Virus record (IMG/VR): IMGVR_UViG_3300028840_001417
Span: 1 to 20,173 of that record
From: a virus
Length of the DNA stretch: 20,173 nt
Direction: 5' to 3' (one strand)
Shown: positions 1-16,407 of the stretch, one piece after another
Layout: the number at the start of each line of letters is the position of its first letter
Position numbering within the stretch: the first letter of the stretch is position 1
Program-made: the position numbers and the translations under genes
The notes under the pieces: model-generated
What the model saw: only the letters and a program-made list of their open reading frames with translations
The model's database searches: none
What the model was told of the DNA's origin: nothing

Positions 1-2609
1 TCCCATGCTTCAATTTTGACCATTTCGGCTGTGATCGTATCACCACCGTTTCCTGATGTGATCTGAACCTTAATCGGGATTGTTCCAGCAGCCGCAGAAT
101 CAGTATTGTCAGTCGCGTAATCAACAATCAATTCCGCTCCGCCCTCAGCTCTAAGCATACCTTGAATTCTCTGAGTATTAGAAGCTGTGCCAACGATCTC
201 AAAGGTTGCCACATAGTCACCGGCCGCTCCGTTCGCAGTATCCAGAGCCATAACGCTTCCATCCTCAAAATACAGATCGACTCCAATGGCAGCGTTAGCA
301 CCAACTACTGTTCCGACCACCGTATATCTGATGGTTTTTCCCTCAGTAAACCATCCATCGGCTATTGTCAGCGAAGATCCAGTTACATCAGATGTGCCGG
401 CACCAGCCTGAGACGTTTGGGTGTATCCTTGAGCAATAACAATAGGAATAGCACCACTTGAAGAACCGGACCCACCATAGTCAGCAAATTGGGCCGTAAA
501 ATCGGTTGATGGATCAGTAACACCAAAAGTCAATTCACTCGCATCGTCTGTTGAACCGTCTAAGACTATAGGCGTGGCGCCCTGAACGGCGGCAGTAATT
601 GTTAGGCCGTCAGTTACGGCGTCACCTAGAGTGGAGCTACCATTATCAGTGATACCAGAGGTGAACGTTGTCGTTTCGGCGAATATTGAAGTACCCTTAC
701 TTACATTCAGAGCCTCATTAGCATTCGCGTCGATCTTGACAGCGTAGACGCTCGGAGTATCAGCGACCGTAGTATCGTCGTCAACATATAACATATAGCC
801 ATCGCTCGCGTCCTCGGCCTTCGCTGTGTCTGCGTCGATTCTGATCATAGAGCCCCCGGCTGCAATTTGACCTGTCGTATGAAGATCAATCAGACCCTGA
901 GCGGAAACTCCAGTCCATGCACCAGAAACAACCATAGCTCTCTCAGCGAGCATGTTCGCCATTGCGATGTCAATCACGTCACCGGTTCTTGCAGCGCCAG
1001 CGTCTATGTCAATGACAGGATAATCACCGTCATGAGAGATTTTGATACCGGTTGAGTTCCCGGTACAATCTTGATTGATTTCAAGGGCGGGTTTCGCAGT
1101 CGTTCCAGCCGGATTCGTGTCATCAATCAACACACAAGCGGATGTTGCAGCTGTAGCGAGGTCTCTCGTGAAGCTAGTCGTGTGATCTTCGTCTGTATTT
1201 ACAGCGATGTAACCATCATCAACGTCGATATACCCATCCGTCATCTGAAAATCACCTGCAGTGATCGTAATCATATCAGAATTAGCCAGACCGCCAACGG
1301 TGACTTCCCCGTATCTTTCAACCGTGAAGTCTTCAGCGCTTCCGTCATAGCAGCGAATATAGTCGCCAGTAAAGCCACCACCGTCAGTCACACTCAGATT
1401 AATAGCTGCACCAGTGAGACCAGCGCCAGTGTTTCCGTATGAAAAACCGTAACCGCTTGTCATCGCATTCGCTGTGATTCCGATAGTGCTTGCAGTCGTA
1501 GCAGCGTCAGTGATAGCCAGCATATAGTTTGAGGTTCTAGTCGCGCTTGACGCTAAACTAAGAAGATCAGAGGTCGTGGCCGTGTTATTCGTAAACGTAA
1601 CCATATCAGATGACGCTGTATCAGTTACAGATAAAGTACCGCCGCTTAGAGTCATATCAACAGTAGCGGGGAGAGTGACAGCGGTTGCACCAGAGCCGTT
1701 TGCGCCTAAAGTGATAGCGCCCGTTGAAGTTCCACCGATTGTCACACCGCCGGCGCCGGTGCCGTCAAGTGTAATAGTCGTCGATGCCGTGGAGGCAACT
1801 AAGGCATCTTGTTTTATAGTTCCAGTGACTGAAACATCGCCGCTAAAAGTACCGTCAGTCGCGCTTATAGCACCGCTGAAAGTCCCGGTTGTAGCGCTTA
1901 TCGAGCTTGAGCATGTCAAGGCGGGTGTAATTGTCACACCAGAAGCTCCGCTCTCTGCGATCTGCACGACTTCGCTTGAGTCAACGCTCAGAGCTACAAT
2001 ATCAGTACCGGCCGGAGCGGCTTCAAAAGCGATATTGACATCATTATCAAGTCGGATGTCGCCGGCGTCAGCAGGATCGGCCCCTATAGACAGATAATAA
2101 TCACCAATAGTGAGAGCAGCCGCGCTAATCTGATCCGCGCTCATGCTCGCGTTGGTGATTGTTCCAGTGGTCGAAATATCCCAATCAGCTGAATCAATTT
2201 CAAAAGTACCATCTGACGTTATAGAAAGAACACCGTCGGAGCTACCGTCAATGATAAGATTAGCGTCATAGAATTCAAGAGTCGCGATAGATTTAATGTC
2301 ATAATCTCCAGCATCACCGTCAGCGGCGAGCGCCAGCCCGGTAGCCGTGGCTGCAGAGTCCATCAGATTAGTGACAGTTCCACCGTCGTCCTCAAAGTAA
2401 ATATTTGTAGTACCGCTATTTTCCTTGACGTACAGCCAACCGTAGCCGTCGCTCGGATTAGAACTTGGAGCGGATATCGCAGGAAATCTCTCGTAATTCG
2501 TAGGGTGCGGCATAAGCTCGATCTTAGAAAAACGATCCTGAAAACCAGCGAATGCTGTACCTGCACAAAGAATAAGAGCAGTAATTAAAACAGAAAGTTT
2601 TTTAAACAT
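1..2609 (-). CDS. Long Ser/Thr/Gly/Ala-rich exported or virion-appendage protein, C-terminus cut by window edge
   Basis: The frame is open from the ATG at 2609 to the left edge, so at least 869 residues are present and the C-terminus is missing. An AAGGGAG ribosome binding site lies 8-9 bases upstream. Residues 1-21 look like a Sec signal peptide: basic MFKK, a hydrophobic core, and an AFA-G cleavage site for signal peptidase I. After a short conserved-looking head (DGYGWLYVKENSG, about residues 50-62) the protein is mostly short beta-prone segments rich in T, S, G, A and D, with recurring pieces such as TGTFSGAIS/DGTFSGDVS, ITLDGTGAG and DGYIDVDDGYIAV. This composition is typical of phage fibres and beta-solenoid adhesins, but no family was recognised. 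It follows the coat gene, where head-decoration or fibre genes often lie. A signal peptide is odd for a cytoplasmically assembled virion protein. It may be a fibre with a hydrophobic N-terminal anchor or a truly exported protein. The reading frame is certain; the role is inferred. Confidence 0.8.
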   Translation of the reverse strand, partial: MFKKLSVLITALILCAGTAFAGFQDRFSKIELMPHPTNYERFPAISAPSSNPSDGYGWLYVKENSGTTNIYFEDDGGTVTNLMDSAATATGLALAADGDAGDYDIKSIATLEFYDANLIIDGSSDGVLSITSDGTFEIDSADWDISTTGTITNASMSADQISAAALTIGDYYLSIGADPADAGDIRLDNDVNIAFEAAPAGTDIVALSVDSSEVVQIAESGASGVTITPALTCSSSISATTGTFSGAISATDGTFSGDVSVTGTIKQDALVASTASTTITLDGTGAGGVTIGGTSTGAITLGANGSGATAVTLPATVDMTLSGGTLSVTDTASSDMVTFTNNTATTSDLLSLASSATRTSNYMLAITDAATTASTIGITANAMTSGYGFSYGNTGAGLTGAAINLSVTDGGGFTGDYIRCYDGSAEDFTVERYGEVTVGGLANSDMITITAGDFQMTDGYIDVDDGYIAVNTDEDHTTSFTRDLATAATSACVLIDDTNPAGTTAKPALEINQDCTGNSTGIKISHDGDYPVIDIDAGAARTGDVIDIAMANMLAERAMVVSGAWTGVSAQGLIDLHTTGQIAAGGSMIRIDADTAKAEDASDGYMLYVDDDTTVADTPSVYAVKIDANANEALNVSKGTSIFAETTTFTSGITDNGSSTLGDAVTDGLTITAAVQGATPIVLDGSTDDASELTFGVTDPSTDFTAQFADYGGSGSSSGAIPIVIAQGYTQTSQAGAGTSDVTGSSLTIADGWFTEGKTIRYTVVGTVVGANAAIGVDLYFEDGSVMALDTANGAAGDYVATFEIVGTASNTQRIQGMLRAEGGAELIVDYATDNTDSAAAGTIPIKVQITSGNGGDTITAEMVKIEAW

Positions 2610-2647
2610 TTTTTATACTCCCTTCGTAAAAATTTTCCCATATATGG

Positions 2648-2707
2648 GTCCGAGAGAGGATCTTCTCTCTCGGACTTGTGAATCGTTTCAGGGTTTTTGA
2701 AACGATT
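2648..2707 (-). terminator. Two tandem hairpins after the coat gene
   Basis: Just after the coat stop codon the minus-strand transcript meets a 10-bp perfect stem (2681-2690 with 2698-2707) and then a second 10-bp perfect stem (2648-2657 with 2666-2675), which can be lengthened by G-U pairing. Neither is followed directly by a T run; the nearest T5 lies about 20 bases on. They could be a weak terminator, a processing site or a 3'-end stabiliser that favours coat mRNA over the appendage gene. Confidence 0.45.
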
Positions 2708-2709
2708 GA

Positions 2710-3954
2710 TTAACCGGTTATACGGCATCCCAACTCAGGGTAGATGGTGTCCCAACCATAGAGAATGTCGAGTCGGGTGATTTCCTTGAAGTTGGTGATG
2801 TCATAGTCAGACGAAATGGATACGCTCAGACCTAAGTCTGGATCCGTAGCGGTCGCCCACTGAAAAGCACTCTCAGGTTTCTGAAACGGAACTACTGTTA
2901 GTGCAAAACAGTTGGGATGAAACGCCAGATTCTGAGCCCTTACTTCACCAGACGTGGTTCCTGAAATACCCGTGACGGCTGCGCCGCTCGTGGGAATTCC
3001 GTTAACAGTCTGATACGGAAGGTATTTGCTATCTGCGCTCTCGCTGTAAATCGTGGGATACACGGCTATGTCGCCAGTTCCACCGCTCAAGGTAACATCG
3101 GCGGTTACGACGAATTTGCGAAGCTGGTTTCCCTCAAACTTCACACCGGAGACCGGGTTGACTGCGTAAACACTACCGATCGTGATAACGGTGCCGGCGG
3201 TTACTGTACCACCAGAAGTGGCACCGGTGACTGAAATCGTAGTGGCACCTTCTGAAGCTGTGCCGCTCAGGGTACCGAGGCTTGTCGCGGTACCATGGGT
3301 GTGCGCCCTTACGTTCTGGTCCTCGAAGACCATGAAGCCCTGCCACGGACCACCAGCAAAGCCGGTCTTTACGACTTTTTCAGTAATCATAGACGAAAAC
3401 AGGGCCTTCATCTCACCAGTAGACATGGCGGCGATGGCTTTCGGAGACATCACACAAATTCTCGGTGACTGAGGTACCGCCTCATTCGTCAAAATCTCTT
3501 TAGCGTCTGCCAGGACCTGAAGCGTGGCCGGGGTTGTTCCCTTTGTGCCCACCCAGTTGTAAACATTCGCGTATTCACCAAGACCGTCATAGTCAACGTC
3601 ATTGGCGATAGGGATCATAGCGGGATTGATGAACCTCTCGCTCAGTCTGTCAATGGAATAGGTCATATCCGAGACCAAGAAATCAAGCGGCACCACTTTA
3701 TGAGTATCAACAGTTACCGTAGTGTTGCGCTCTACGATGTCAACGTGAGAAATAGACGGACCACTCTGTGTTCTGTATTTGTTGGGCTTTCGGATTCGGA
3801 CGGAGTTACCTTTTTTGTAACCGTTCGGAGAATCGGCAAGCTCAGAATCATAGCCCATGTAAACGTTTCCGGGTTTGGCCATAACGAGATTGTTCTTGAG
3901 GTCAAAAAGTGCCCTCTCGGCAATCATGTCATGGGTTAAAAAAGAATCAGCCAT
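2710..3954 (-). CDS. Major capsid (coat) protein, P22 gp5-like
   Basis: At 414 aa this is close to the length of the P22 coat protein (430 aa), and it has that family's features. These are an N-terminal arm starting MADSFLTHDMIAERALFDLK, a segment GDSVRIRKP-like (here GNSVRIRKP, about residue 50), a VTVDTHKVVPLDFLVSDMT segment, and a C-terminal region ending with FKEITRLDILYGWDTIYPEL, which is very typical of P22-type coats. A Gly/Thr-rich, Ig-like or inserted segment lies around residues 225-300. The gene forms the icosahedral shell with the scaffold gene 27 bases upstream. An AAAGGAG site 6-7 bases before the ATG supports the start. The family call rests on recalled sequence similarity, not on a search. 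Confidence 0.9.
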   Translation of the reverse strand: MADSFLTHDMIAERALFDLKNNLVMAKPGNVYMGYDSELADSPNGYKKGNSVRIRKPNKYRTQSGPSISHVDIVERNTTVTVDTHKVVPLDFLVSDMTYSIDRLSERFINPAMIPIANDVDYDGLGEYANVYNWVGTKGTTPATLQVLADAKEILTNEAVPQSPRICVMSPKAIAAMSTGEMKALFSSMITEKVVKTGFAGGPWQGFMVFEDQNVRAHTHGTATSLGTLSGTASEGATTISVTGATSGGTVTAGTVITIGSVYAVNPVSGVKFEGNQLRKFVVTADVTLSGGTGDIAVYPTIYSESADSKYLPYQTVNGIPTSGAAVTGISGTTSGEVRAQNLAFHPNCFALTVVPFQKPESAFQWATATDPDLGLSVSISSDYDITNFKEITRLDILYGWDTIYPELGCRITG

Positions 3955-3981
3955 TTTGTTACTCCTTTCATATAGAGAAGA

Positions 3982-4842
3982 TCACGCCAGGCCGTGTTTT
4001 GCTTTCAGCTTTGCTTCTCTGTCAGCATCCCATTTCGCAAAACGCTCTTTCTGAGACATTTGTGATATGTCCTTAACGGGTGTAACTGTTCCGCTCGCGT
4101 TCAGCGTCGGCACTGGTGTTTCTTCTGGAATTTTCTTTTTGGGTTTTGTTCCTTTTACCTTCTCAATTCGAGCCTCGATTTTCCCAATCTCTTTGATCTG
4201 TTGACTCTTTGACAGCGAAGCGATCCTATTTGATGCCGCTGGGTTCTTGCCCAGCACATAGAGGATGTCCTCGAGGTGTTCGCCTTTCGCGGCGTCAAAC
4301 ATTTCCTGTGTGACATTGTGAGTTTGAGACAGCGCAACCTCGTCGAAGTCTTCATATTTTTCGCGACCAGTGTCGAGCTGCTCATTTATGGCTTTAAGTT
4401 CCTGCTCCTTCTGCGTCTCCTGTTGCTTTTTTGTCTCGCCTTCTCGCTCTTGCCTGAGAATTTCGAGATTCTGAGCGTTCAGGGCCTTCAGGTAAGCCTC
4501 GTCACTTTCAAAGTCATCCCTGGAAAGTTGAGCCGGAGTGTCGTCAGTCTTTTGACCGGACTTTTCGACTTGGCTCAGCCGACCGCGCAAATAGATATTA
4601 TCTCTTTCGAGATCTCTCATTTTCTTGGTCAGCGTGTCGATCCGTTTTTGAACCTTGTTTGTCTTTGGTTTAGGATCTGCGTCAGGATCTTCCGCGTCTT
4701 CTTTTCCGCTGGGGTCTTCGCCCTCAGTATCTTTGCCCGCTGGGTCGTCAACGGTACCGTCTTCATGTTTTTCGTTATCCTCGGGTTCTTCTTCCAAGGC
4801 GCCTTCAATGAAATCCATCTTGATTTCGTCTTCTTTTGGCAT
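3982..4842 (-). CDS. Probable capsid scaffolding protein
   Basis: The 286-aa product is very hydrophilic. The first 60 residues are strongly acidic (runs of E and D), the middle (about 65-150) is a predicted long coiled coil rich in K, E, R and Q, and the last 30 residues form a basic amphipathic helix ending KLKAKHGLA. This layout, and the place between portal and coat, match scaffolding proteins of P22-type and other tailed phages. In those, a C-terminal basic helix binds the coat protein and the rest is elongated and exits the procapsid. GAAGGGAG lies upstream of the ATG at 4842. It is probably the first gene after the terminator at 4911-4952 and shares a transcript with the coat gene. No protease domain was seen. 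Confidence 0.75.
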   Translation of the reverse strand: MPKEDEIKMDFIEGALEEEPEDNEKHEDGTVDDPAGKDTEGEDPSGKEDAEDPDADPKPKTNKVQKRIDTLTKKMRDLERDNIYLRGRLSQVEKSGQKTDDTPAQLSRDDFESDEAYLKALNAQNLEILRQEREGETKKQQETQKEQELKAINEQLDTGREKYEDFDEVALSQTHNVTQEMFDAAKGEHLEDILYVLGKNPAASNRIASLSKSQQIKEIGKIEARIEKVKGTKPKKKIPEETPVPTLNASGTVTPVKDISQMSQKERFAKWDADREAKLKAKHGLA

Positions 4843-4910
4843 GATGCTCTCCCTTCATGTATTTATTGCCTGGTGTAGCGCACCAGTACGCTTAAACTGA
4901 AAGCGGGCAC

Positions 4911-4952
4911 AAAAAAGGGCACACAGGGGTGGAGGCAGCCCCCGCGTGCCCT
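4911..4952 (-). terminator. Rho-independent terminator, minus strand
   Basis: Read on the minus strand, a GC-rich hairpin (AGGGCAC paired with GTGCCCT, plus an inner GGGG/CCCC stem) is followed at once by TTTTTT (4916-4911). It stands between the metallopeptidase-like gene and the scaffold, so it should end most transcripts from the portal side. The rest of 4843-5003 holds no gene: I see only this structure and a small 5-bp stem (TGGTG/CACCA, 4871-4885). Confidence 0.85.
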
Positions 4953-7757: not shown

Positions 7758-8969
7758 TTATACTCCTTTATGTCTTCCAGGCTCAGACCTGGATTTTAAT
7801 TTGATAACAACCGAGTGACCGGTTGAAAGTGTGCTTTCGTTATAACTGATAAAAGGTTTCACTCTCGCGTCGATATTCTCGATATGAGCTTTACCTTGCG
7901 TTGGCATAGCATTAGTTGGAAATAAAAATGAACTAATATTTCCGAAATTAACATTTCTTAAAACTTTACCGCTTGCTCCGGTGCCAGCGAGACAGATACC
8001 GCTTTCGATATACTCTAAACTCCATATATCTGACTCGCTATAAAGCGTGCCTAAACTAGACCACGTTGCACCATAGTCAATGCTGCGTAAGATCTTACCG
8101 TCTGGTGATGTACCAGCAAATACAATACCGCTGCCAACATGAGTAAAGCATCTTATATAATCTTGAGCAAACTGTCTTCCAAGATCAGACCACGTTGCAC
8201 CATAGTCAATGCTGCGTAAGATCTTACCGCTTGTTCCGGTGCCGGCGAGACAGATACCGTTTCCAAGATAGATAAGCGACAATATTCTTGTCTCACTAGC
8301 CTGTTGACCGAGATCGGACCAGTTTGCACCAGCGTCTGTGCTTCTGAATATTTTGCCGGTGCTGCTAGTTCCAGCTATTGCGATATTGCTTTCCAGATAT
8401 TCTATCGAGTAAACATAAGTTTCGGTAGCAAGTCTTTGAACCCCCCCCCACGTTTCACCATAATCAGTGCTGCGAATTATCTCTCCATTATTATACAATC
8501 CAGCTAAGACAACACCGCTACCGCAATACGCAAGTGAATATACATATAAATCACTTCTTTGTCTTCCTAGGTCAATCCAGTTTGCTCCATAATCAGTGCT
8601 GCGAATTATATGAGCTTGCGAGCCAAGACCTGCAAGACAGATACCGTTTTCAAGATAAAGAACACAATTTATAAATGCCTGAGATGCTTGTTGACCAAGA
8701 TCAAGCCACGTTTTTCCATAGTCAGTGCTGCGAATTATTTTACCACCAGCCGCTGTTCCCGCAATTATTACACCGCTATCGCAATTTGCAAACGATAATA
8801 TTCTTGTCTCACTTGCTTGCTGCCCTAAATCTGACCATATATCAATTCCATTTCTCATTACGAGCTTATCGCCGTCAGTGTCACCGCAAGAGAAAGAGAT
8901 CCAGTCAACGTCTATACCGTTTTCGCTTCCGGGAAACGTGTCTAGCCAGCTCCAGTCTGCGTCAATAAT
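7758..8969 (-). CDS. Seven-bladed Asp-box beta-propeller inserted in a small virion-type domain
   Basis: The frame is open from 8969 to a TAA at 7758 (about 404 codons). Seven repeats of 43 residues follow one another; six end in an Asp-box (S-T/I-D-Y/A-G-x-T/N-W) and the seventh is decayed. Seven such blades would close a sialidase/BNR-type propeller. The flanks match the preceding small gene: DADWSWLDTFPG...DTDGDKLV before the propeller and FLFPTNAMPTQGKAHIENID..VKPFISY after it, against DSDWTWIDLFPG...DADGDICV and ALFPKQAQKTQGPAQIVYYD..IKPVIDY. The propeller therefore sits inside a second copy of that domain. The first ATG (8858) lies within the domain and has no ribosome binding site; upstream only ATT codons occur before a stop. 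Translation may use a +1 shift or re-initiation. A virion-surface or receptor-binding role is inferred. No catalytic sialidase residues were identified. Confidence 0.8.
   Translation of the reverse strand: MIDADWSWLDTFPGSENGIDVDWISFSCGDTDGDKLVMRNGIDIWSDLGQQASETRILSFANCDSGVIIAGTAAGGKIIRSTDYGKTWLDLGQQASQAFINCVLYLENGICLAGLGSQAHIIRSTDYGANWIDLGRQRSDLYVYSLAYCGSGVVLAGLYNNGEIIRSTDYGETWGGVQRLATETYVYSIEYLESNIAIAGTSSTGKIFRSTDAGANWSDLGQQASETRILSLIYLGNGICLAGTGTSGKILRSIDYGATWSDLGRQFAQDYIRCFTHVGSGIVFAGTSPDGKILRSIDYGATWSSLGTLYSESDIWSLEYIESGICLAGTGASGKVLRNVNFGNISSFLFPTNAMPTQGKAHIENIDARVKPFISYNESTLSTGHSVVIKLKSRSEPGRHKGV
8441..8449 (-). repeat. G9 homopolymer inside the propeller gene
   Basis: Nine C on the plus strand (nine G in the mRNA) encode W-G-G at the start of blade 4, where the other blades have W-S/L/I-D-L-G. 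The frame is intact as given; a change of one base would truncate the protein. Confidence 0.9.
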
Positions 8970-9234
8970 CGATCACGGGTTTAATCGGTGCATCGTAATA
9001 GACGATCTGAGCTGGTCCCTGGGTTTTCTGTGCTTGCTTCGGGAATAGCGCAGGCCCAGTGTCAGAAGCTTCTTTGATAACGCAGATATCACCGTCAGCG
9101 TCACCGCTTGAATACGCTATAAAATCAACCATGATCCCGTTGATCGCGCCCGGAAACAGATCAATCCACGTCCAGTCGCTATCCATTGCAGTGATCTCGA
9201 TGGTTTTATCGTCATGATTCACATTATTAGCCAT
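8962..9234 (-). CDS. 90-aa small beta-domain protein, undecorated copy of the propeller-bearing domain
   Basis: Function unknown. GAAAAGGAG precedes the ATG at 9234, which overlaps the stop of the preceding gene (TAATG). From residue 17 the protein matches the two flanks of the downstream propeller gene: MDSDWTWIDLFPGAINGI, then SGDADGD, then LFPKQAQKTQGPAQI and a C-terminal KPVIDY. It is the simple form of the domain, with no insertion between DICV and ALFP. It has no Cys and no signal peptide. Its TGA stop is followed by C (TGAC) and overlaps the propeller frame. Small domains of this kind before the portal could be head-fibre or decoration proteins, but that is only inferred from position. 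Confidence 0.8.
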   Translation of the reverse strand: MANNVNHDDKTIEITAMDSDWTWIDLFPGAINGIMVDFIAYSSGDADGDICVIKEASDTGPALFPKQAQKTQGPAQIVYYDAPIKPVIDY

Positions 9235-13644: not shown

Positions 13645-13678
13645 AAAAAGTGGGGGGTTTAACCTGTGGCCCCCCCCC
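13645..13678 (-). terminator. Attenuator-like G9/C6 hairpin with T5 in the leader of the Zn-ribbon gene
   Basis: On the minus strand nine G (13678-13670) can pair with six C (13657-13652), followed after AC by TTTTT (13649-13645). It lies between promoter copy 2 and the first gene of its operon, so transcription would be ended early unless the hairpin is relieved. Further upstream in the leader, two near-direct repeats (AGGCTGGGC) occur. Confidence 0.55.
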
Positions 13679-14303: not shown

Positions 14304-15062
14304 TCATTGAAACATTTTTATCTGTCTTGCCTCTGGCTCTATCCGGGCCTTGGCAATCTCGCAGTATTCCTCTGAAATTTCTATGCCTATCCAGCGGCGG
14401 TTAAGGCGTTCACAGGCTACTGCAGTTGTGCCTGAGCCGAGGAAAGGGTCTAAAACTATGTCTCCCCGATTAGAATGTATCTCTATAATTTTATTCATCA
14501 ACTTAATTGGTTTTACTGTTGGATGCTGGTCTTTTCTAGGAATGATTTTCCCTATTTGCCATACATTTGGAGTATTGTTACCTCCATTCCATCTATGGGC
14601 AGGTTGACCATTTTGAGCAATCAAGATAAATTCGTAATTCCTTCGGTAATGCATCCCCATTCCAAGACCGCCTTTATCCCAAACTACCGCTTGTTTAAAT
14701 CCAATTATTTCATCCATCCATAAAGTCCATTTAGCAAATAACGGTTTGGGGCCACCACCACCACAACAACAACAACAACATGCTCCCCCTTTTAGGAGTT
14801 TATGTTTCGCTATTTTTAACATTTGCTTAAATTGTTCATGTGCTTCCTCTCCGTCATTACAGATCGGCCTAACTCCTAAATTCTCAATTTTACCCCCAAA
14901 GATGGCCTCCCACCGGGAGGCCAAGTCACCATCATTGTAATTCAAACCATAAGGAGGATCGGTCACTATTAAATCAAATTTTTTATTCAGCTGTGGCATA
15001 ATCTCCAAACAGTCCCCACAATAGAGCTTACCTAGATTTGTCTCGTAGTATGGCTTTATCAT
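14304..15062 (-). CDS. DNA methyltransferase 1 (DPPY type, N6-adenine or N4-cytosine)
   Basis: The 252-aa enzyme should transfer a methyl group from S-adenosylmethionine to an exocyclic amino group in DNA. The catalytic DPPY motif is at residues 35-38 and the SAM-binding motif DPFLGSGTTAVACERL near 211, so the order is that of the beta class. A run of six Cys and four Gly (residues 95-104) stands between the motifs, before PKPLFAKWTLWMDEI. The rest is complete and the size is normal. AAGGGGAG lies before the ATG, which overlaps the Toprim gene's stop (ATGA). There is no partner endonuclease nearby, so it probably protects or marks phage DNA. The target site cannot be read from sequence. Confidence 0.9.
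   Translation of the reverse strand: MIKPYYETNLGKLYCGDCLEIMPQLNKKFDLIVTDPPYGLNYNDGDLASRWEAIFGGKIENLGVRPICNDGEEAHEQFKQMLKIAKHKLLKGGACCCCCCGGGGPKPLFAKWTLWMDEIIGFKQAVVWDKGGLGMGMHYRRNYEFILIAQNGQPAHRWNGGNNTPNVWQIGKIIPRKDQHPTVKPIKLMNKIIEIHSNRGDIVLDPFLGSGTTAVACERLNRRWIGIEISEEYCEIAKARIEPEARQIKMFQ
14751..14780 (-). repeat. Trinucleotide repeat encoding Cys6-Gly4 in methyltransferase 1
   Basis: On the coding strand there are six TGT codons, three GGT codons and one GGC in a row. The use of one codon for all six cysteines suggests slippage growth. I have an uncertain memory of similar Cys-Gly runs at this place in other phage methyltransferases. Confidence 0.9.
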
Positions 15063-15724
15063 GATATTCTCCCCTTAATTTTTCCGTTTTTCACGTCCAG
15101 CCAATCGCCGTATCCGAGCGGCATCCTTATTCTAACATTAAATCCGGCCAATGTCAAGCGATGCGCAAGCACACATGCCGATTTCTGTCCGCAATAATTT
15201 TCGTCTTTGTCGGCAAAAATTATAATATTGCTCACTTTCGGCTCAGCCGGGGGCATCCAGGACTCAAGCATCGTAGCGTTTACCGCCGACCAGGTCGGAA
15301 TTTTGGATAACTCAAACGCCGCGATCGCACTTTCTATTCCCTCTGCCACGGCCAATGTATCTGGAAATGACGGCACCAGTCTAATGCCGCACCCGCCTAG
15401 AGTGCGCGTTCCCTTCATCAACTTCCTTGGGGCGTCTATATCGGCCTTCTTTCCATCGGGTGTTAAATATGTTCGATGAATCGTCACAGGTTTTCCGTCG
15501 CTTCCATCAACCCTCGCGACCATAGCCGGCATCTCGGTTTTCGTCTCAGATTCGTATAATTTTTGATGAAATCTTATATTAGTGGGAAGAAAATCCAGGG
15601 ACAGCCCCCTGCTTCGTAAATATTTGCATACAATATCATCCCCGGTTAAAATCTCTGATTCCTGCCAAATTTTATTGAGAAGTTTGCGGTGATCGTAGTT
15701 GTTAGATTTTCTCAATAGCTTCAA
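15059..15724 (-). CDS. Toprim half of a phage primase
   Basis: The 221-aa product has the linker type seen in P4/T7-like primases (KIWQES..LTGDDIVCKYLRSRGL, residues 18-41). A Toprim domain follows, with LAVAEGIESAIAA (catalytic Glu, about 127) and IIIFADKDENYCGQKSA (DxD-type acidic pair, about 170). It makes RNA primers together with the Zn-ribbon half encoded just upstream. The frame opens at TTG 15724, which overlaps the Zn half by 23 bases; no ATG lies near and there is only a poor ribosome binding site. It may be made by re-initiation or by a shift at a T6 run in the overlap. No helicase domain is fused. Confidence 0.82.
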   Translation of the reverse strand: MKLLRKSNNYDHRKLLNKIWQESEILTGDDIVCKYLRSRGLSLDFLPTNIRFHQKLYESETKTEMPAMVARVDGSDGKPVTIHRTYLTPDGKKADIDAPRKLMKGTRTLGGCGIRLVPSFPDTLAVAEGIESAIAAFELSKIPTWSAVNATMLESWMPPAEPKVSNIIIFADKDENYCGQKSACVLAHRLTLAGFNVRIRMPLGYGDWLDVKNGKIKGRIS

Positions 15725-15977
15725 AAAATCCGGAGGCCTTGCCGGTTTTAATTAAGAGGCTAAAGCCATCCCCTGCACCGCATTGTTGACAATACCATCC
15801 CCCGTGGCCGTCCTTGTTGTCAAAACGAAAACGGTGATTGTTTCTTCCTGGCCCACAAATCGGGCAGCCAGAAGTTTCTTTCGGGTTATCGGAAACCTCA
15901 ATTCCATAGTGCGCCAAGATTTGCCGCCAGCGCCCCTGGGCTTTTGCTTTCAGTAGCTCAAGATCCTTCCCTGCCAT
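15702..15977 (-). CDS. Zinc-ribbon half of a phage primase
   Basis: The 91-aa product begins at ATG 15977 with GGGAGG 9 bases upstream. An in-frame ATG at 16046 has no such site. CPICGPGRNNHRFRFDNKDG followed by GGWYCQQCGAGDGFSLL is the four-cysteine zinc ribbon of P4/T7-type primases, which recognises the priming trinucleotide. The protein stops soon after this domain (GFFEAIEKI), where one-piece primases continue into a linker and Toprim domain. The Toprim half follows in the +1 frame. It overlaps the preceding HTH gene by 20 bases. Confidence 0.85.
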   Translation of the reverse strand: MAGKDLELLKAKAQGRWRQILAHYGIEVSDNPKETSGCPICGPGRNNHRFRFDNKDGHGGWYCQQCGAGDGFSLLIKTGKASGFFEAIEKI

Positions 15978-16407
15978 ATGCTCGCACCTCCCGTCCACAG
16001 CCCTCGCGTGGTGGATATTCATATTTTTCGTTATAATGTTGTCCAAGACACCATTTGTAAATTACACTCGCGCTAACTCCGTGAGCCCTCGCGGCTTCCC
16101 TGAGGGTATCGTAATCTATCCCGTCAATCACCCAGACCATTTTTAATTTTTTGGTTAGCAGAATCCCCTTGGTTCTCTCAGCATCCAGTCCTACTGTATC
16201 ACAGACACCAATAAACGAGTTAATGCCGTAGTTTCTGGGATTTGCTATCCATCGTTCAGCATCCAAATAGTCAGCACTTAAACCAGCGGCCAAGTCGAGA
16301 ACAGCTTGACACAACACACTGTTCCACAATCGTATATTTGGATCGCCTTCGATTTGCTTAATCTCGAAAATTGATGACAATCCGTGCCTTATCTCACTTA
16401 ATTTCAT
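15958..16407 (-). CDS. 149-aa phage protein with a C-terminal helix-turn-helix
   Basis: I start it at ATG 16407, because the longer frame from 16443 would begin on the -35 box of its own promoter. Residues about 25-75 carry RLWNSVLCQAVLDLAAG, DAERWIANP, FIGVCDTVGLDAERTKGIL, a pattern I know from small phage proteins of unknown function encoded near replication genes. Residues about 95-125 (YDTLREAARAHGVSASVIYKW) form a helix-turn-helix of the homeodomain-like kind. A basic tail ends it. It is the first gene of the primase and methyltransferase 1 operon and may be a DNA-binding regulator or replication factor. The mRNA seems leaderless. Confidence 0.75.
   Translation of the reverse strand: MKLSEIRHGLSSIFEIKQIEGDPNIRLWNSVLCQAVLDLAAGLSADYLDAERWIANPRNYGINSFIGVCDTVGLDAERTKGILLTKKLKMVWVIDGIDYDTLREAARAHGVSASVIYKWCLGQHYNEKYEYPPREGCGREVRAYGREGS

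Follow-up and report, generated by a model that had tools for sequence, protein, structure and literature searches.

A seven-bladed Asp-box propeller nested in one copy of a partly duplicated small domain beside the portal gene of a P22-like phage

Introduction

According to PMC5009743, which cites Fraser et al., Ig-like domains roam among the head and tail proteins of phages, in some cases in a frame different from that of the carrier. These display domains are the nearest analogy to the locus described here, which has in common with them a roving binding-type module on unrelated structural proteins. It differs from them in that the module has a propeller fold and is inserted within a duplicated domain, in one of its loops, whereas theirs is appended at the C-terminus. 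The original prediction for this DNA stated that no description of such an arrangement was known. Within the literature searched this stands for the nesting itself, but roving display modules on phage structural proteins are well described for Ig-like domains (PMC5009743 and references there). The Asp-box beta-propellers (Pfam BNR and Sortilin-Vps10; PHROG 8700; PMC2716378) form a second related group, for which a maximum of n-1 canonical Asp-boxes has been reported. They share with the propeller of our locus the repeated Asp-box, seven blades, n-1 canonical Asp-boxes and, by sequence, a Velcro-like order, with the last blade to be closed by an N-terminal Trp strand. In contrast to them, our propeller has no (F/Y)RIP, its 43-residue blades are unusually regular, and it is nested in another domain whereas they make up a whole protein or a chain end. 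Two other likenesses are analogies. The seven-bladed propeller lectins of the PLL family (PMC6943638), which are not phage proteins, also have seven similar blades and a possibly multivalent glycan binding. Phage capsid decoration proteins such as Dec of phage L (PMC6449081) likewise offer a small beta domain encoded in a P22-like head gene cluster.

Results and discussion

The locus and its two copies of a small domain

The window, i.e. the whole stretch of DNA that was analysed, is the complete IMG/VR virus record IMGVR_UViG_3300028840_001417 (20,173 bases), a bacterial virus known from environmental DNA alone. A P22-like head gene cluster occupies its - strand, with genes for a P22-like portal (Pfam P22_portal, 2.8e-140), coat (P22_CoatProtein, 3.1e-37), scaffold and large terminase. 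Two open frames, P0002 and P0001, are positioned between the large terminase and portal genes. Their features are as follows.

8962..9234, - strand: P0002 (90 aa), first copy of the small domain, covering 1-89 of the 107 profile positions (independent profile E 2.7e-24)
7758-8969, - strand: P0001, open frame of 403 residues comprising N flank, propeller and C flank
8838..8966, - strand: P0001 N flank, first half of copy 2, profile positions 16-57 (BLASTP to P0002 E 2e-15; independent profile i-E 9e-6)
7935..8837, - strand: propeller, seven-bladed Asp-box beta-propeller, 7 x 43, P0001 residues 45-345
7761..7934, - strand: P0001 C flank, second half of copy 2, profile positions 59-106 (BLASTP E 1e-6)
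8962..8972, - strand: P0002/P0001 junction, where the P0002 stop TGA (8962-8964) overlaps the P0001 frame TCG ATT ATT GAC
8856..8858, - strand: first ATG of the P0001 frame, just ahead of the propeller, MRNGIDIWSDLG
8441..8449, - strand: nine-G run (C on the + strand) in blade 4, with the frame intact

All the piece-by-piece matches that had been quoted between P0002 and the flanks of the propeller ORF were found on the - strand at 7758-9234, and the seven 43-residue Asp-box repeats between these flanks are exact, as judged from the conserved Trp spacing in P0001. By BLASTP, P0001 residues 2-56 match P0002 with 46% identity (E 2e-15) and residues 349-376, collinear with the former, with 54% identity (E 1e-6). 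Local scores were 133 for the N flank (maximum of 61 in 2000 shuffles) and 70 for the C flank (maximum of 40 in 2000 shuffles). The two copies of the small domain are ~52% identical. P0002 spans positions 1-89 of the 107-position family profile and is therefore without the last (C-terminal) strand. P0001 spans positions 16-57 and 59-106 of 107, edges obtained with a profile that contained the joined flanks and to be read alongside the window-free profile described below, and is therefore without the N-terminal hairpin. By these profile coordinates the complete fold, from N-terminal hairpin to last strand, is absent from both P0002 and P0001, and the final strand missing from copy 1 is present in the P0001 C flank. 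The small domain is partly duplicated, copy 1 being without its last strand and copy 2 without its first hairpin. The proposal of a duplicated domain with the propeller in one copy thus holds for the duplication and for the placement in one loop of copy 2, but not for two whole domains, both copies being partial. The insertion lies at profile position 57/58, and the two matched stretches of P0001 are separated by no more than one position of the profile.

Relatives and predicted fold of the small domain

Five standalone relatives (L009-L013) were found in IMG/VR, with a mature part of ~110 aa and no significant Pfam or PHROG match. They have the whole fold and the DSDW(T/S)W and KPFLD motifs, and they are single complete copies with no insertion. 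The family profile used here was built without window sequences, from the five relatives only, to avoid the partial circularity of one containing the joined flanks. With this profile P0002 scored E 2.7e-24 and P0001 a full-sequence E of 2e-10 in two ordered parts, i.e. the N flank (i-E 9e-6) and the C flank, which on its own reached 0.07 (positions 99-125). P0002 and P0001 thus belong with this family, the motifs of which can be written DSDW(T/S)W and KPF(L/I)(D/S). The family, which has no Pfam or PHROG match, is newly set out here. L011 is a standalone copy in the same position as our locus, between terminase and portal, and L009 is near a head-closure (Hc3) gene. Relatives of P0002 were not detected by tblastn in 50,697 phage records or by single-sequence scans, the small-domain scan of bacterial and archaeal genomes gave nothing, and a wider motif scan of viral contigs gave no further member. 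A portal-based search for close kin yielded one weak match and nothing else. It had also been suggested to search for the small domain with other insertions; standalone relatives were found, but no other insertion was seen among the small-domain loci.

The model of L009 (pLDDT 90.2, pTM 0.84) is an all-beta sandwich with strands at residues 4-8, 11-15, 36-44, 51-56, 63-68, 76-85, 87-89 and 101-106. The insertion point of the propeller corresponds to the loop between strands E51-56 and E63-68, which places the propeller, in copy 2 of the small domain, within a single beta-hairpin loop. In alignments mixing small-domain and propeller rows, the domain rows were misplaced across the insert, and flank rows only were therefore used in the structure job. 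In the resulting AlphaFold model of P0001 the flanks (pLDDT 64-81) are better than the propeller part (mostly <50), which is poor because the alignment had no propeller rows. The flank strands E19-27, E35-40, E360-364, E372-374 and E386-391 match by position E36-44, E51-56, E76-85, E87-89 and E101-106 of L009. The expectation that structure prediction would recover the fold of the 90-aa protein from the flanks is borne out to the extent that strands lie at places equivalent to those of L009, compared by position, but the propeller part is of low confidence. The best structural matches of this low-confidence part are mostly propellers (Z 8-10). Compared with known jelly-rolls (CBM, cupin, nucleoplasmin-like), the L009-type domain matches many chains, none strongly (best Z 6.4, rmsd 3.1 over 83 residues), with Foldseek E of 5e-3 or worse. 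Since these matches are weak, the fold is tentatively called jelly-roll-like. The absence of a strong fold relative does not make it a new fold.

The propeller module

Conserved Trp residues are found at positions 45, 88, 131, 174, 217, 260 and 303 of P0001. The Asp-boxes (S-x-D-x-G-x-x-W) follow the same 43-residue spacing, with six canonical blades and a degenerate blade 7, in agreement with the n-1 maximum (PMC2716378), and blade-to-blade identity averages 47%. The module matches Pfam Sortilin-Vps10 (4.5e-14), BNR_6 (7e-10) and BNR, all three above their cut-offs, as well as PHROG 8700 (3e-18). The order is Velcro-like by sequence, with a first W-strand preceding blade 1 and none after blade 7, in a region where the model is of low confidence. 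Two other identities were considered for the module. Sialidase (GH33) activity was set aside, as there is no RIP of the (F/Y)RIP sialidase arginine motif anywhere in the propeller. An Ig-like display domain was also discarded, the inserted module matching Asp-box propeller families and not the Ig fold.

An alignment-based search of IMG/VR gave 78 propeller loci. Close relatives of the propeller are found within long fibre-like ORFs (L003 and L004; at differing points in L020, L024, L025 and L033), at the end of a baseplate-wedge-like protein (L021/L002), ahead of a collagen-like repeat (L022), and in a gene of their own flanked by those for portal and head protease (L018/L001). By these gene contexts, the propeller is a roving module that occurs in tail fibres, a baseplate protein and a head gene cluster. 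If this is real, host-recognition parts of uncultured phages may be recognisable by it. None of the propeller relatives carries the small domain, and the nesting is not repeated in the 78 propeller loci or in the other small-domain loci; the arrangement is known from one contig. At the L018 place, the propeller gene (L001, 5058-6369) overlaps the end of an unnamed 92-aa gene, which could be a parallel to the window. The nine-C runs of the + strand at 8441-8449 and 13670-13678 are the only C/G runs of at least 7 in the window. Slippage in the blade-4 run would turn the propeller off, making it a candidate for phase variation or an artefact.

The frame break between P0002 and P0001

P0002 and P0001 are in different frames, one base apart, and if TGAC is read as one step at the junction a fused protein of 491 residues (P0003) is obtained. 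The explanation that we prefer, to which we give about an even chance, is that this part of a P22-like phage genome codes for an anchor-plus-adhesin protein, with a jelly-roll-like anchor and a glycan-binding propeller in one chain of ~491 residues. A small jelly-roll-like domain would have been partly duplicated and a seven-bladed Asp-box propeller put into the hairpin loop of copy 2. The chain would start with P0002, the ATG of which is preceded by a good Shine-Dalgarno (AAAAGGAG), and would run from the N-terminal hairpin and copy 1 to copy 2 with its projecting propeller, and then to the sole C-terminal strand. The frame break would be a one-base sequence error, or would be bridged via frameshifting or reinitiation. 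A single chain is the most likely product. Against it counts that the N flank, as sequenced, is without a standard start codon or Shine-Dalgarno: no ATG, GTG or TTG start precedes the domain in the P0001 N flank, no Shine-Dalgarno is clear before 8858, and there is none at the junction.

Another one-base break is found elsewhere on the contig, in the primase gene (15059-16046, - strand). It is located at ~15705-15710 beside an AAAA run and separates the Zn-ribbon (Zn_Ribbon_Prim) part from the DUF7146/Toprim part. The joined primase is covered to at least 80% in one place by 26 phage records, and it is unbroken in all among the matches listed. A sequence error at the P0002/P0001 junction is therefore a real possibility, and either of the two breaks may be such an error. 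A search of viral and genome contigs for near-identical copies of the junction, either keeping or lacking the extra base, found none.

The 403-residue P0001 frame is free of accumulated stop codons. Differences between the copies in the N flank number 11, 11 and 24 at codon positions 1, 2 and 3, respectively, a third-position excess as expected if the N flank has been coding for most of its history. We consider it distinctly improbable that the locus makes two proteins, the 90-aa protein and a propeller protein from the ATG at 8858, with a vestigial N flank and only the propeller plus the C-terminal half-domain produced from P0001. This ATG is the first of the frame and directly ahead of blade 1, and free-standing propeller genes exist (e.g. 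L018/L001). However, it has no clear Shine-Dalgarno, and the N flank shows the coding-constraint signature and supplies the counterpart of the half-domain at the C-terminal end.

Third-position G+C in the N flank (0.52) and P0002 (0.51) is near that of the portal gene (0.55), but the propeller stands at 0.33 and the C flank at 0.31. Compared with the portal gene, the p values are 9e-11 for the propeller, 5e-4 for the C flank and 0.75 for the N flank; the contrast between N and C flanks is modest (p 0.04). Along the locus, the value falls sharply from 8838-9234, on the N flank side, to 7758-8837, with propeller and C flank. The low values suggest a joint origin of propeller and C flank from an AT-richer phage, from which both may have been imported together. 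They would also fit a recent illegitimate recombination, deletion or assembly chimera that put together the first part of one small-domain gene and the last part of another, related gene with a propeller, out of frame, so that neither half would now be a working protein of this form. With copies ~52% identical, a local duplication is not required, and the junction ATTATTGAC is out of frame. We nevertheless regard such a chimera as unlikely, as the two parts of copy 2 meet with no more than one profile position between them and look like one interrupted domain, the 403-residue frame has no accumulated stop, and the copies differ above all at third codon positions.

Programmed +1 frameshifting at the P0002 stop, or reinitiation at ATT, would give an abundant 90-aa form and a minor propeller-extended form. 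UGA C is the context of the RF2 frameshift site; it is also the context of the P0002 stop, where the needed shift is +1. In several cases, Ig-like extensions of phage proteins, coat and tail proteins among them, depend on a -1 or +1 frameshift (PMC5009743). This mechanism is nonetheless very unlikely here: there is no Shine-Dalgarno-like stimulator upstream, the P-site codon UAU re-pairs poorly on AUU, and the unextended 90-aa product would be without the last strand of the fold, unlike the complete domains that precede Ig-like extensions. A still less probable variant, which we would call highly speculative, is that each copy is without the edge strand kept by the other, the two complementing one another within one chain or between two chains, and that frameshifting at the junction sets the amount of propeller. 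This would be a previously undescribed type of regulated display device, with the propeller displayed from one of two mutually completing copies.

Predicted role of the proposed anchor-plus-adhesin protein

In the anchor-plus-adhesin explanation the small domain would fix the protein at or close to the particle's head or neck, from which the propeller would project as a multivalent ring and bind a glycan on the surface of the host or its matrix, or another receptor there. The gene neighbourhood points to a virion location, and analogy with the seven-bladed lectins (PMC6943638) suggests glycan or receptor binding. The propeller insertion probably serves display by the virus particle. If this is true, phage display modules can nest in a loop of a small structural domain and not only at chain ends, and such nesting would keep the anchor while projecting a large binding ring.

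Signal-peptide-like leaders begin three of the five small-domain relatives, L010 (4917-5318), L012 (4905-5336) and L013 (4911-5312), with the sequences MTKYLFIIIAFLTFAIPCQAG, MKKILSTITALALALCLLTAPAMAA and MKKRILFSELITCLLMAIWAAPAPA, respectively. This is unusual for a head protein and counts against the virion reading. These leaders could mean that the protein is exported and acts at the cell envelope, where the propeller would add binding, and is not part of the virion. We give this little credence, since such a leader is absent from P0002, L009 and L011, each of which has portal, terminase or head-closure genes nearby.

Two further observations concern the surroundings of these relatives. Large neighbouring proteins in L010 and L013 also carry signal-peptide-like leaders. 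In L012, the region directly upstream of the small-domain gene (2299-4932) is likely a diversity-generating retroelement, comprising an Lcl_C-domain protein with a candidate variable end, bAvd, an A-rich candidate template and a reverse transcriptase.
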